From: Xanthobacteraceae bacterium
Lineage (GTDB): Bacteria; Pseudomonadota; Alphaproteobacteria; Rhizobiales; Xanthobacteraceae
Direction: 5' to 3'
NCBI GenBank assembly: GCA_030037885.1
Contig: JASHPU010000027.1
Span: 1-64,000 of the forward strand
Length of the DNA stretch: 64,000 nt
The translations under genes and the position numbers were made by a program. The notes beneath the pieces were generated by a model. The model was not told the origin of the DNA. It made no database searches and saw only the letters and a list, made by a program, of their open reading frames with translations. Position 1 is the stretch's first letter; each line of letters starts with the position of its first letter. Below are positions 24,795 through 48,796 of the stretch, in pieces.

Positions 24795-24857
24795 GTGCGG
24801 ACCGTCGTGGCAAAGTCATTGATTCTCGTAGTAGGACGCACCGCCGTGGGTGGATGA
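24795..24857 (+). promoter_or_regulatory. Candidate ilvB leader peptide (attenuator)
   Basis: GTG-started ORF (M)RTVVAKSLILVVGRTAVGG*, clustered Val/Leu/Ile codons, immediately before hairpins and a terminator. Confidence 0.75.
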
Positions 24858-24889
24858 TCCACCCGCGCGACGCGGCGGTGCGTAATCCA

Positions 24890-24915
24890 GGGGCCTTCGA
24901 GCCCCTTTTTTATTT
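24890..24915 (+). terminator. Rho-independent terminator in the ilvB leader
   Basis: GGGGC-CTTCGA-GCCCC followed by TTTTTTATTT. Confidence 0.85.
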
Positions 24916-24976
24916 CCCGAACCTTGGCGCCGCAGACAGCGGAAACGGCAGCGGCGGCGATAGTGGAGCAGGTGCG

Positions 24977-31138: not shown

Positions 31139-31362
31139 GCGCGGATCTCGGCAGGCTTTTGCGGTCGGCGCCGCGCGCTTGCGGCGCCGCACGCTTTTCC
31201 GCTACAAGAGGGTGCCGTCAATATCCGGGTTAACGCGGAATTCACCTTGTTCCGCGACCTTGGCGAGTAAAGGCTAAAGCGAGGGCGAAAGCCGTGTCGA
31301 CGCGCTGCGATCATGTCCGCGCGATGACCCCCGGAGCCGGTTCGGCCGCCGGCGCCGCTCTC

Positions 31363-31410
31363 ATGCCTTGTGCGATTCTTCGCGGGCTCCTGCTCCTTAG
31401 CGCCCCCTGA
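31363..31410 (+). promoter_or_regulatory. Candidate leuA leader peptide (attenuator)
   Basis: ATG ORF MPCAILRGLLLLSAP* with four consecutive Leu codons, upstream of leuA. Confidence 0.8.
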
Positions 31411-31453
31411 GGGCCGGCTGGGCCGTTGCGCGCCTGGGCACTCAGGGGTTTTT
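31404..31453 (+). terminator. Candidate attenuator terminator upstream of leuA
   Basis: CCCCTGAG (31404-31411) / CTCAGGGG (31441-31448) followed by TTTTT. Confidence 0.7.
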
Positions 31454-31538
31454 CCTAAGCCACGGAACCCAGGAGCGCCCGAACCGCCTCCCCCCCGATC
31501 GGGAGGAAAGGCGGGCGCCAGCGAAAAGGACCAGTTTC

Positions 31539-33206
<1,668 letters not shown>

Positions 33207-33294: not shown

Positions 33295-33370
<76 letters not shown>

Positions 33371-33427
33371 AAGATTCCAATGAGTTAGACGCCGGTCAAA
33401 ATTTCATTCTGACAACGGGGCCAGCGG

Positions 33428-34726
33428 CTATTCTGACAAATCGGCCCTTTTCGTTCTTTCGGCCCGGCGCTTCTTCGCGACCGAGATCAGCTGCTTGCGC
33501 GTGCGCTTGGCGTAGGTCGGGAGCTGCCGCGCCGATCGATGCCGGCCGGCCGCACGCAACTCGGCATCGGTCATATCGGCGTCGGCGCCCTCGGTGAAGC
33601 CGCCGTGCCGGAACGACGTGAATGAGAGCGTGTCGCGCAGGCCTGCGGCACGAATGATCTCCTTCACAACGTCACGGAAGTACCGCAGATCGCCCTTCGG
33701 CGTAATCCATGGCTTCGGCACCTTGCCACGGCGGTGCGCATGGCCGCGCCGGAAGATCAGGCCGTCGAGCCCCACGACAGCACCGTCCTTGATCGCGTCG
33801 AGCTCCGCCATCAACTCGGGGAATAGCGGAAAGTCTTCGGGCCGCTTCTGTGTCTCATCGAACAGTGGCCACCACGCCTCCTCGCCATTCTTTGGATGTA
33901 CGACGCGCACCGCGTTCGGCCGCTCTTTCGGCCGATAGTGTGAAAGCGCAAACGAGCCGAGCAAATGCTCCTCGCGCTGCAGCCATTCCCATGTCGCGAG
34001 CGCCGCGGTGGCGATCGACTGGTAGCCGAGCAAGATCGCTTCGGTGCGGAAGGCGGCCAGTTCGTCCCAGGTCGCGGTCGGCGTCTCGCGCACCTGTTCG
34101 CCGGGACCGCGCTTTTTCAGCCCCATCTTGGCGAACGGATTGACCTCGGGGACGATCTTCTCCTGCGCGCGCTTGCCGATATTCCAGGCGCGCCGGCAAG
34201 CCGTCATTGCAGCATTGGCGAAGCGCCTGCGTTTCCGTTTGACGGTTTTGCCATGTGCATCCTGCTCCTCGACGGTGAGCAGCTTCGCGTAGGTCGCATC
34301 AACAAAACCGCGAGTGAAGTCAGCGAGCTTTTGCGAGCCGACACGCGCGCCGTTTTTCAAGACATGATCGGCGAACAGCTCTAGCCCCTGCGAATAGAGA
34401 CGCTTCGTTTTGTGGTCTAGATCGCCCCATGCCACCTCATTGCCTTTGAAGATTGTCACCAGCCAATCGAACGTCCCGACCCCTGGGCCAATTGGCACCA
34501 TATCGCTGAGGCCGCCGGTGCGCCAAGAATCGAACGCCGGCAACAAAACGTCTTCGGCGCGCCTAACTGCGGCGTCGTAGTCCATGCCGAGCGGCTCGCC
34601 CTCCACAGGACAGCCCGCGTTGCGAGCCCATGACGGCGGATTGAAAAAATAAGCCCATTGCCCGCCAGCCAGAGGCTTGCGCAGCGTGTATCGCGGCAGC
34701 GGTCTTGCGGATTTGGGCGGCTTCAT
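33428..34726 (-). CDS. int: Tyrosine-type site-specific integrase
   Basis: C-terminal SFTSFRHGGFTEGADADMTDAELRAAGRHRSARQLPTYAKRTRKQ; location beside the tRNA. Confidence 0.85.
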   Translation of the reverse strand: MKPPKSARPLPRYTLRKPLAGGQWAYFFNPPSWARNAGCPVEGEPLGMDYDAAVRRAEDVLLPAFDSWRTGGLSDMVPIGPGVGTFDWLVTIFKGNEVAWGDLDHKTKRLYSQGLELFADHVLKNGARVGSQKLADFTRGFVDATYAKLLTVEEQDAHGKTVKRKRRRFANAAMTACRRAWNIGKRAQEKIVPEVNPFAKMGLKKRGPGEQVRETPTATWDELAAFRTEAILLGYQSIATAALATWEWLQREEHLLGSFALSHYRPKERPNAVRVVHPKNGEEAWWPLFDETQKRPEDFPLFPELMAELDAIKDGAVVGLDGLIFRRGHAHRRGKVPKPWITPKGDLRYFRDVVKEIIRAAGLRDTLSFTSFRHGGFTEGADADMTDAELRAAGRHRSARQLPTYAKRTRKQLISVAKKRRAERTKRADLSE

Positions 34727-35007
34727 ACGAGTGACCGAAGGTGCTCCTTGGCTAGTTCCCCTCCATCCTGCCGGTCCATCGCGATCGGCGCAATGTAGCG
34801 ATCGAGGTCATCACGATTCCAAATAGGCTCCCGGCTTCGGCCTTTGCCCCGGAGCGACGATGGAGCAGGGGCATCGTGGCGCACGATCGCGGCTGCAAAA
34901 TCGGCGGTATCGCGATAATCGAGATATGCCGCTGCCATGTCGGCACGCATCTGCGCCGGCCATGTGCCGGTCGGCGGATAACGGGCAGGCAGGGCGGAGC
35001 GGGTCAT
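34723..35007 (-). CDS. Small putative HTH/excisionase-like protein
   Basis: MRADMAAAYLDYRDTADFAAAI...REPIWNRDDLDRYIAP; overlaps the integrase start. Confidence 0.5.
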   Translation of the reverse strand: MTRSALPARYPPTGTWPAQMRADMAAAYLDYRDTADFAAAIVRHDAPAPSSLRGKGRSREPIWNRDDLDRYIAPIAMDRQDGGELAKEHLRSLV

Positions 35008-35034
35008 TCGTGCAAAACCGCTTTTTCCGGTTTT

Positions 35035-35955
35035 CTATTGTTCTTTGCTAAGGTGCTTGGCTGCCGCAGCGATTGCATCGGCGAGCGACGTGGACGCGGA
35101 GACGAAATTGGCGGCGAACGTCGCGCACTCGACCATGTTCAAATTCTCGACGAGGTTGCCTTGCTCGTCGCGCCAGTTGCCGTCCCATGCGATGCGGTCG
35201 CCGCACCAAATGCGCTCGATCAAAGTCGGGATCTTCACCTTGGGCCGCGCGAACTCGCCGCGGGGCGCTGCCGGCAGCATGCGCCTGGTCCAGGCGAAGA
35301 CCGGAATTTCATGGGCTACGGCCGCGCCGATCTCGAAAGCGATGACAGGATTGAGATGCGGCGAGCCGCGGAACGGCGTGATCTCCGCGACCACGGCGCG
35401 GCATCCGAGTATTTTGTACCACCACTTGTGCGCCATCCGGCCCACCGCCGGATCATCGATCGGCAGCCCGACCCTGACGCGCATCGCGACCGTCGTACCG
35501 GAGGGAAACAAAAAATGCTCGGACGGCCACTCGGCGACTAGGCCATGCCGATCGCAAATCTCCTCGGCGACCTCGCGCTGGCGCACCGCATCGATGCGCA
35601 GCCGCGAATTGTCGGCAAGATAAATCTTCGGCAGAGAGGCCGCGGCGATGGCATCCGGGGACATCGGCCAACGCCTGCCGGCGAAACCGCGGCTACGCCG
35701 CACAGGCTCAGCTATGATGGTCCGGCCATCCGCGCCGTCACTCTCACAGGATGCGTAAATTTGCGCACCCTCTAACACGCCATCGTCCGCCGCCGCGCCT
35801 CCGCCAATTGGCGGAGCCGTGATCTCGCCCTGGTCGCTGCCGCGGTTTCGCAGGCACGCGAGCGCACGGTCTAAGATTGCTCGCACTGACAGGCGGTTGC
35901 CGAACATCATCATCGTTTTCAAACTCCCCTGTTCACCTCGGCAAGCCCATCCCAA
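35035..35955 (-). CDS. Nucleoside 2-deoxyribosyltransferase-like protein
   Basis: KIYLADNSRLRIDAVRQREVAEEICDRHGL ... CRAVVAEITPFRGSPHLNPVIAFEIGAAVAHEIPVFAW. Confidence 0.75.
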   Translation of the reverse strand: MGWACRGEQGSLKTMMMFGNRLSVRAILDRALACLRNRGSDQGEITAPPIGGGAAADDGVLEGAQIYASCESDGADGRTIIAEPVRRSRGFAGRRWPMSPDAIAAASLPKIYLADNSRLRIDAVRQREVAEEICDRHGLVAEWPSEHFLFPSGTTVAMRVRVGLPIDDPAVGRMAHKWWYKILGCRAVVAEITPFRGSPHLNPVIAFEIGAAVAHEIPVFAWTRRMLPAAPRGEFARPKVKIPTLIERIWCGDRIAWDGNWRDEQGNLVENLNMVECATFAANFVSASTSLADAIAAAAKHLSKEQ

Positions 35956-38029
35956 TAATCGCGCCGGCGAGGAGGCGGCGGCGGCGGAGTAATCTGCGCT
36001 TGCTCCGGATTCTCCGCAGCGGTTGAAGCCGCCATTTCCGCTTCATCGGATTGCGGCGGCAAATCCTGCACATGTGCAGGGTTTGCCGCGGCCGATGCCG
36101 GCGCCGCGACCCGCGAAAGCGGATTGAATAGATCGGGTGCGATCAGGTCTTGCGGCACGCCGCGTTCACGCGCGATGCGCGCCCAATCCTCGGCGGTCAA
36201 ACCGACGAAATAGGCGTTCGCCAGGGCAGTGTTACCGATGCGGCAGTCCAAAAAATGATTGTCGCGATGCGAGCGCAGCTTCCACACCACACCTTGCGAA
36301 CGCGCCCGCGAAATTTTTCTTCGTCAAGATATTCGGATGTAAGCTGCTGAAAATAATTCTCGTCGAGGAACTGGCCGAAATGGCAGAAGCCCGGCGGGTA
36401 AATGATGGTCGAGCCGCGCGCGATCGGCTGCAGCGCGGCGTAAGTATAGAACTTCGATTTCAGCGGCCACGTGCCGATCAGCCGCAGCTTGGCGCCGCCC
36501 TTGATCTTACGGCCGCGGTAGTCGACGTCCTGGTCGCTCGCTGTGCCAAGTGGCACCTTGGCCCAGCCGTCGATGCCTTTGGTTGCTTTCGCCCCAGGAT
36601 GCCGGCGCGTCCATTCGTACACAACGTCTGTGCGATAGCCGGAATCGACGCCAATTTCGTCGAGCCGCCAGCGGTTGCCAAACCCGTCGGGCCATTCCCG
36701 CATATAGATTTTTGTGAGCTCGGCGAAGGCGCCGGCATCAACGTCGGTCGTGGCACCATCGAGATAGTCGGCGAAGAGCGTCCAGCTTTGCTGATCGGGC
36801 GCCCAAGCCACAACCTCCACATAGATGCCGCGCATTTGCACGTCGGCGAAGGCGGTGAGGAGGAGCGCACCGAGCGGAACGGTACCGGCGCTATAGTCCT
36901 CGCGCCGAGCAAACAACCGTTCATGGTCGGGCGCGTCGCCGGCGATGTCATAGGGCAAGCCGAGGGTGAGATTCCAGAAAGCTTTGAGCTGCGTTGGATC
37001 ATCGCCAGCCGCGACGTAATCATTAGCGATCTGGTCCCAGGTTGAGAATGGTGCGGAGATTTCGTCGAAATGATAGGAAGGGAATTTGCCCGGCCCCGGC
37101 GCGGTCGCTTGCCAGCGGCCGGTCAGATAAACGGCCGTCTTCTGCCACGCTTCGATCACGGCGCCGCAGCACGGTGGAACATAGTGCGCGTGATGCGGAA
37201 AGGTCTTTTCGAACTTAAGTCCCCACGTCGATTTGTCGTACGGTGAGTTCCAGCCGAACACGATGCGGGCGCGACAATGCGGACATTTGACGTGCCACCG
37301 GCGCTGATCGCCGGCCTTGAATTTTTTGTCAATCTTCGACGCGCCCTCGACCGTCGGCGTCGAGATATAGGCGCGTTTCCAGGTGCCGGATGCGACAAAC
37401 GATTTTTGCGCGCGGGCTATCAGCGTGAGCGGGTCGCCCTGGTCTTCGAGATCGTCCTCGTATTCATCAACCTCGTCACAGAGAATTTTTTTGACCGTCA
37501 GCATGCGCAGCTGCGACGGCGACGACGCGAGGAGGAGATTGAGCGCACCGCGCGGAAACTTTTTCTCGTTCGTGGTCGAGCCACGCGCCGATCGCGAGGT
37601 CTGCGGATACACCTTGCCACCGCGGCCATTCTTGCCGCCGAGCGCCTCGGTCAGCTCGATCGTTCGGCTTAGCTTTGTTGAATTGAATTTGGTTAAGGCC
37701 GCTTCGGTCGGCAGCACCACCGCTATATCGCAGGGATCGCGGTCGATCGTGTAGCCGACCGAACAGAGCAGCATGGTGGTGAAGGCCGTCTGGCCGCTTT
37801 TCATGACGGCGAGTTCATTGCAGGCCGCATCCGGGCCGAGTAGGTCAAGTGGCTCGACAATGTGCGGCGTGCGGGCCAGGTCGATCTTTTGCCCGGCATA
37901 TTCGCCGTCCGGCAGCACCATGTGTTCGGCCGCCCATGCCGACGGCGCGATCGGCGCCGCGGGCTCGAATATCGCCGCTGCAACGCCAGCGACAAGCGTG
38001 AGGAGCGAGCAGGGCAGCGCGATCTTCAC
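35919..38029 (-). pseudogene. Phage terminase large subunit (GpA-like), frameshifted
   Basis: ORF 36197-38029 ends out of frame after FRGRVRKVW; conserved-looking C-terminus VWKLRSHRDNHFLDCRIGNTALANAYFV continues in 35919-36290; 5-bp tandem duplication at 36282-36293. Confidence 0.8.
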
Positions 38030-47870: not shown

Positions 47871-48737
47871 TTATAAGGCCTTGTTTTGTTTGAGGAAGCT
47901 GTTCCACCAGCCACGGTATTCTAATTTCAGAAACTCGGTCGCCGCTCGCGTTGCGCTCTCCAAATCGTAATCGCCCGGCGGTTCCCGACCGCTGTTGCGT
48001 TCCATGTAATCGATGCGCGCGAGCTGTCCGGCAAGTCCGCCCCTGGTGGGTGATTGCGTCTGCCGTGACCATTTGAGTAATTGGTCAAAGCAATTGCTGA
48101 ACGCATATTTTGGAGGGCGCCCTCTAACTTTCGCGTCCACCGCCGCGGTTGGCTCGCCCAAACCATCAATCTCATCGCCGGCGCCTGCTGGCCGCACGAC
48201 AGCCGAGGAAGCAAGCGCTTCTGCAGAATAAATGCGGATATCTATGAAGCGCGCGCCGCCGACATCCTCGGTAGCGACGCCCCTCGTTAGATTGACCGCC
48301 GTGATGTAATCCCAAAAACTCGCCTCGATCCTCTGCAGCGGTGCGGCGACACTGTTCAATCTGCCCTCAGCAATCCATTTGCCTGATCGAAAAAGGTCCC
48401 AGAAAGGTCGATAGATTAAAATTTCCGCTCGCTCCTCCTCGATGGACCCCGCAACATCACCGTCACCTACGCGCACGATCTCACCGTGTTTGCTGTCAAT
48501 CAGAGCGAGCGTGCAACAGGCGTCATTGGTTAGAACGCGAGCGCCATTAGCAATGCTCGCCAGTTCGCGATTGGAAAAATATGCGTCTAAGAAGCTGTCA
48601 AACGCGACCTGCAGGGACGCACCGGCAAGCGTAGGCGGGTTAATATCGCCGCGCTCTTGCTGCTCCTGTCGTTCCTTCGCCAGCATTTTTTTCGCCTCCC
48701 GCATTAGCGCTCCGCATCTGAGAAATCCGCGCGGCAA
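47871..48737 (-). CDS. Hypothetical protein
   Basis: 288 aa, typical codon usage, in the minus-strand series. Confidence 0.5.
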   Translation of the reverse strand: MPRGFLRCGALMREAKKMLAKERQEQQERGDINPPTLAGASLQVAFDSFLDAYFSNRELASIANGARVLTNDACCTLALIDSKHGEIVRVGDGDVAGSIEEERAEILIYRPFWDLFRSGKWIAEGRLNSVAAPLQRIEASFWDYITAVNLTRGVATEDVGGARFIDIRIYSAEALASSAVVRPAGAGDEIDGLGEPTAAVDAKVRGRPPKYAFSNCFDQLLKWSRQTQSPTRGGLAGQLARIDYMERNSGREPPGDYDLESATRAATEFLKLEYRGWWNSFLKQNKAL

Positions 48738-48796
48738 TCGAGGTGCGGTCCCCGACTTTCGGCCCGTCGGCCTAGCCGCGCGAATCGGATTCTAGC

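Follow-up and report, generated by a model that had tools for sequence, protein, structure and literature searches.

The stretch of DNA analysed here, called the window, is 64,000 nucleotides long and carries leuA, the regulated gene, which encodes 2-isopropylmalate synthase, at 31539-33206 on the plus strand. A leader open reading frame of 38 amino acids precedes it on the same strand (31294-31410; MSTRCDHVRAMTPGAGSAAGAALMPCAILRGLLLLSAP), with a GTG start at 31294, a Shine-Dalgarno-like GAGGG 5′ of that start and a TGA stop at 31408-31410. The preliminary description had begun this frame at the ATG at 31363, and from there to 31410 the window reads ATG CCT TGT GCG ATT CTT CGC GGG CTC CTG CTC CTT AGC GCC CCC TGA. 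The four consecutive leucine codons (CTC CTG CTC CTT, 31387-31398) and the stop were found as described, but the sequence suggests that this ATG is probably internal and that the GTG is the start, since a leader frame of 34-38 amino acids is common to the relatives, where the homologues start with ATG. It is the only frame that is kept open: in 99% of 84 leaders of the window's family it stays open over 30 codons or more, and 56/84 have a start preceded by a Shine-Dalgarno sequence, compared with 6/84 and 0/84 for the remaining two frames. The leader is presumably translated in the cell.

Further plus-strand elements lie between the leucine codons and leuA. A hairpin, P2 (31404-31448), carries the stop codon of the leader within its 5′ arm and is followed by a run of five T (31449-31453). 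The two sides of a proposed helix, P1, are an anti-Shine-Dalgarno tract at 31379-31398, which includes the leucine run, and the leuA ribosome-binding region at 31511-31532, with the Shine-Dalgarno core AAGGA at 31526-31530. In addition, an inverted repeat, CGCGGAA...TTCCGCG (31234-31256), lies in the presumed 5′ UTR; relatives keep it upstream of the leader, and leader L015 shows an apparent compensation (CGCCA...TGGCG).

The window contains another leader upstream of ilvB (24796-24912), consisting of a small GTG-start frame, MRTVVAKSLILVVGRTAVGG, and then GGGGCCTTCGAGCCCC with a run of six T. The Rfam family Atu_C8 matches 24809-24921 at this leader; therefore, the Atu_C8 sRNA family looks like an ilvB attenuator. 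The ilvB leader is similar to that of leuA in that codons for branched-chain amino acids stand before a branched-chain biosynthesis gene. It differs in its GC-rich hairpin with six T directly after it, which is a standard intrinsic terminator, and the organism thus does use U-tracts. Coordination of leuA and ilvB is plausible, with different mechanisms at the two leaders.

Distribution of the leader element

An unbiased set was obtained by choosing the leuA upstream regions of relatives through a LeuA protein match alone. The first 30 leuA loci included 28 with an upstream region, and 28/28 carried a frame ending in a leucine run, two further residues and proline, with the stop in the 5′ arm of P2 (TGG instead in L016). 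Another 20 leuA loci came almost entirely from different families of the same order, and 18 of them possessed the element. The preliminary description had staked its proposal on conservation of the leucine codons in orthologous leaders, and the LLL(L)xxP-stop pattern indeed stands before leuA in 46 of the 48 protein-selected loci in total.

A covariance model of the hairpin matched 187/200 genomes of the window's family and 87/387 genomes across the class Alphaproteobacteria, where 83/88 matches were upstream of leuA and the remainder were weak. In a phylum-wide sample of 398 Pseudomonadota genomes, all the model matches fell within the same class and none outside Alphaproteobacteria. Furthermore, 72/80 matches of an exact-pattern scan of named genomes were immediately upstream of leuA. 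The element stands before leuA in Methylobacterium, Gluconobacter, Asaia, Acetobacter, Rhodoblastus, Devosia, Kaistia, Hyphomicrobium, Methyloligella, Rhodovibrio and other genera. Judged by sequence comparison, the leucine-rich peptide end and the stop-codon hairpin are genuine, with conservation far above the chance level.

A large family of the same order, f24, gave zero matches in the phylum sample; six of its genomes (G059, G503, G637, G623, G686 and G738) have only distant LeuA relatives, with 25-32% identity. Two copies of the leader element per genome were observed in members of the window's family (G028, G827, G839, G842, G862 and G874), which possibly reflects two leuA genes or duplicated contigs.

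Hairpin P2 and the run of T

The preliminary description had placed the stop codon inside CCCCTGAG, paired this with CTCAGGGG and noted the five T behind it. All of this was confirmed: CCCCTGAG at 31404-31411 is complementary to CTCAGGGG at 31441-31448, and the T run begins at the next base. Single-sequence folding of the window leader was no better than that of shuffled sequences (z = -0.33), so the case rests on comparison. Covariation across leuA leaders, the check proposed at the outset, was clear in the lower stem of P2, which in the first alignment scored above each of 500 shuffles and above all the slid controls. An alignment drawn chiefly from other families had changes on both sides in 7/12 P2 pairs (19 cells, compared with 8.2 in shuffles); its covariation score was 0.291, where shuffles gave 0.180 and slid versions no more than 0.126. 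Moreover, where the stop is TAG or TAA in place of TGA, a matching change is found in the 3′ arm of P2. The stop codon and the stem therefore both appear to be selected. In six leaders (L016, L074, L094, L109, L319 and L331), TGG stands in the place of the stop codon and the leader frame continues into the hairpin.

In a classical transcription attenuator, P2 and the T run would form an intrinsic terminator. Its formation would be prevented by a ribosome stalled for leucine, either by masking of the 5′ arm or by way of an antiterminator. The window fits this in several respects: its P2 is strong (-28.4 kcal/mol) with five T directly after it, a ribosome on the last leucine codon would extend into the 5′ arm, and the ilvB leader in the same window is of such a type. 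However, a U-tract, defined as four or more T no further than eight bases from P2, was present in only 3/84 family leaders, those of the window and the two relatives nearest to it, and in only 12/234 leaders overall, so that 81/84 and 222/234, respectively, lacked it. The antiterminator put forward in the preliminary description, CCTGGG (31433-31438) with CCCAGG (31468-31473), is complementary in the window; the pairing was exact in 2/84 family leaders, and no co-evolution was seen among the 84 (p = 0.47), so it was rejected as a switch. In addition, a ribosome stalled at the first leucine codons would leave P2 free to form. Transcription attenuation is accordingly an unlikely account of the element.

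A leucine attenuator upstream of leuA, as the preliminary description had proposed, thus holds in part. The best reading retains a ribosome-based sensor of leucine but not the terminator and antiterminator, since neither U-tract nor pairing is conserved. The TTTTT is present in the window but lineage-specific. On the sequences compared, a conserved terminator role for P2 is not supported, as the hairpin is kept in nearly all relatives without a U-tract. For the window and the two relatives closest to it, the five T may add transcription termination, and transcription attenuation could be an extra layer in this small lineage.

Predicted pairing of the leucine tract with the leuA ribosome-binding region

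In the window, 31379-31393 pairs with 31511-31525 as P1, and UCCUU at 31394-31398 is complementary to the Shine-Dalgarno core. Near-perfect complements of the leader's own leuA Shine-Dalgarno region were also spotted by eye in L063, L105, L069, L090 and L058. The pairing was examined by a duplex test of the last 27 nt of each leader before P2 against positions -28 to -1 of its own leuA, with GC-matched partners from other genomes as controls; the test takes no account of intramolecular competition. In 139 non-redundant leaders, cognate pairs averaged -15.45 kcal/mol and non-cognate pairs -12.72 kcal/mol (p = 2.7e-12). No signal came from a different leader segment tested against the Shine-Dalgarno region (p = 0.33) or from the leucine tract tested against the leuA coding sequence (p = 0.67). 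GC bias as the source was ruled out by the GC matching and these two negative controls.

A scan confined the signal to leader positions -24 to -6 and leuA positions -22 to -4 (p about 1e-6 to 5e-9), fading to both sides. In the window's family alone, the leucine tract with the Shine-Dalgarno region (p = 6.4e-6) was the clear one among 19 combinations. Alternative partners (other leader segments, the middle of the spacer and leuA codons) were null, except for a weaker family signal right after P2 (p = 1.6e-3). Three rows of the family test, for leader positions -80 to -53, include an artefact, probably from an empty string, which skews their mean energies and hardly affects the rank tests. The signal was also obtained with the 46 leuA-selected loci alone (p = 1.7e-4), and it was not significant in the 18 additional order-level loci alone (p = 0.23). 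A strong P1 is not present in every genome.

Folding models gave a corresponding picture. The mean accessibility of the Shine-Dalgarno sequence rose from 0.37 to 0.49 with the last leucine codons covered as by a stalled ribosome (p = 6e-13), stayed at 0.39 with an upstream stretch covered (p = 0.13), and reached 0.44 with a scrambled leucine tract (p = 6e-8). For the window alone, the modelled value changed little, from 0.55 to 0.64, with 0.61 under the control mask, and its best P1 adjoins the core AAGGA rather than covering it. The switch predicted in the window itself is weak, and the mechanism there consequently rests mainly on orthology. Because the leucine codons co-evolve with the leuA Shine-Dalgarno region, translation of leuA is taken as the control point.

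The last leucine codon was CTT in 226/234 leaders, CTA in 7 and ATT in 1, and CTT accounts for 5% of the leucine codons within leuA itself. Part of the 234-leader set was chosen by a pattern or model favouring CTTA; the unbiased loci also had CTT, in 28/28 and 18/18. The next base is nearly always A (31396-31399 in the window). The codon CTC would use the same tRNA as CTT. Pairing with the Shine-Dalgarno sequence does not fully explain the near-invariance, and a search for a pairing partner of the invariant CUUA found none that was convincing. A +1 frameshift at CUU-A was also considered and dropped, because in the CUA-A variants such a shift would lead to a stop codon.

The proline before the stop is similarly near-invariant (CCC in 231/234), and proline directly before a stop is a slow-termination context. 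This would suit an arrest peptide of the TnaC type, stalling at its Pro-stop end on free leucine, with the leucine codons incidental. However, the CCCC required for P2 fully explains the proline, the residues between leucine and proline vary freely (Ser, Ile, Thr, Met and Arg), and the conserved features, the CUU codon, the stem and the Shine-Dalgarno pairing, are at the nucleotide level; such a peptide is therefore very unlikely. Inside the window's family, the primary sequence of P2 is very highly conserved and the CUUA upstream of it is invariant, as might be expected if P2 and its flank were the site of an RNA-binding protein, with leader translation secondary; a protein has also been proposed for the actinobacterial LEU element (PMC1262725). 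Nevertheless, the upper part of P2 and its loop vary freely outside the family, and a protein site would leave the leucine codons, the position of the stop codon and the co-evolution of leucine tract and Shine-Dalgarno region unexplained, which makes it very unlikely.

Proposed mechanism and comparison with known systems

We consider it probable that the element is a leucine-responsive, ribosome-mediated translational attenuator. Its sensing codons would themselves be the anti-Shine-Dalgarno sequence, with the stop-codon hairpin as the bridge between them and the Shine-Dalgarno sequence. The comparison of leaders shows the conserved leucine run, P2 with its compensated stop codon and the co-evolution of the leucine tract with the Shine-Dalgarno region; from these we infer ribosome stalling, the direction of switching and the effect on expression. 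With leucyl-tRNA plentiful, a ribosome translating the leader would pass the leucine codons, terminate at the stop in the 5′ arm of P2 and leave. P2 would then fold and bring the leucine tract beside the leuA ribosome-binding site, the tract and the Shine-Dalgarno sequence would pair as P1, and leuA, its Shine-Dalgarno sequence hidden, would be off. When leucine is short, the ribosome would stall on the leucine codons and cover the anti-Shine-Dalgarno tract, so that no P1 would form and leuA would be translated.

Wherever in the run the ribosome stalled, P1 would be blocked, so that exact positioning would not be needed. In contrast, masking the 5′ arm of a terminator would require a stall at the last codons. 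The overlap between stem and stop codon, which had been puzzling, would also be resolved, because P2 would form after the ribosome has terminated and departed.

Among published designs, the LEU element that precedes leuA in Actinobacteria comes closest; it was described computationally by Seliverstov et al. in 2005, who left its mode of action unresolved and doubted leader-peptide attenuation (PMC1262725). According to the published description, LEU likewise has an upstream frame with a run of leucine codons, pairing of this run with the leuA Shine-Dalgarno sequence as a basal stem, and no terminator (PMC1262725). It differs in being a pseudoknot or alternative hairpin, compared with the simple stop-codon hairpin in Alphaproteobacteria, and the co-evolution evidence for the pairing comes from the alphaproteobacterial element, unlike LEU.

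The attenuator of the enterobacterial leu operon (Rfam Leu_leader) also has a leucine-codon leader peptide before leuA, but it works by termination and antitermination, whereas in the present element neither a U-tract nor an antiterminator is conserved, and Rfam gives no match. Leu_leader gave no match at the gathering cut-off in the window, nor at E ≤ 5 in five relatives, and no family of Rfam 15 matched the leuA leader element in the window or, at a permissive E-value, in the five relatives. The erm and cat leaders are translational attenuators that sense antibiotics. There, too, a stalled leader ribosome frees a hidden Shine-Dalgarno sequence; here, in contrast, the amino-acid codons themselves are the anti-Shine-Dalgarno sequence. 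No description of the element for Alphaproteobacteria was found among the open-access papers that were searched.

On balance, we lean slightly towards a class-wide, uncatalogued alphaproteobacterial RNA regulator of leuA, in which the leucine codons are the anti-Shine-Dalgarno sequence and codon choice, with its nearly invariant CUU, and riboregulation are one object, convergent with LEU, with the terminator tail gained in the window's lineage. If so, leucine synthesis in much of Alphaproteobacteria, including methylobacteria, acetic acid bacteria and hyphomicrobia, would be under a leader RNA absent from Rfam 15. It would be an unusually simple attenuator, with one hairpin and a single codon run that would both act as the sensor and repress the gene that follows. 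Furthermore, it would provide a testable account of the unresolved LEU element and a route to translational attenuators that terminator-based searches overlook.

Close to leuA, the window also contains a tRNA (33295-33367) and, on the minus strand, an integrase-like gene (33428-34726) and a terminase-like frame (36197-38029), both assigned from the translations of open reading frames only. The region 33295-38029 is an apparent prophage or integrated element adjoining leuA. In addition, an Rfam int-alpA RNA match is located at 48715-48782 on the minus strand.
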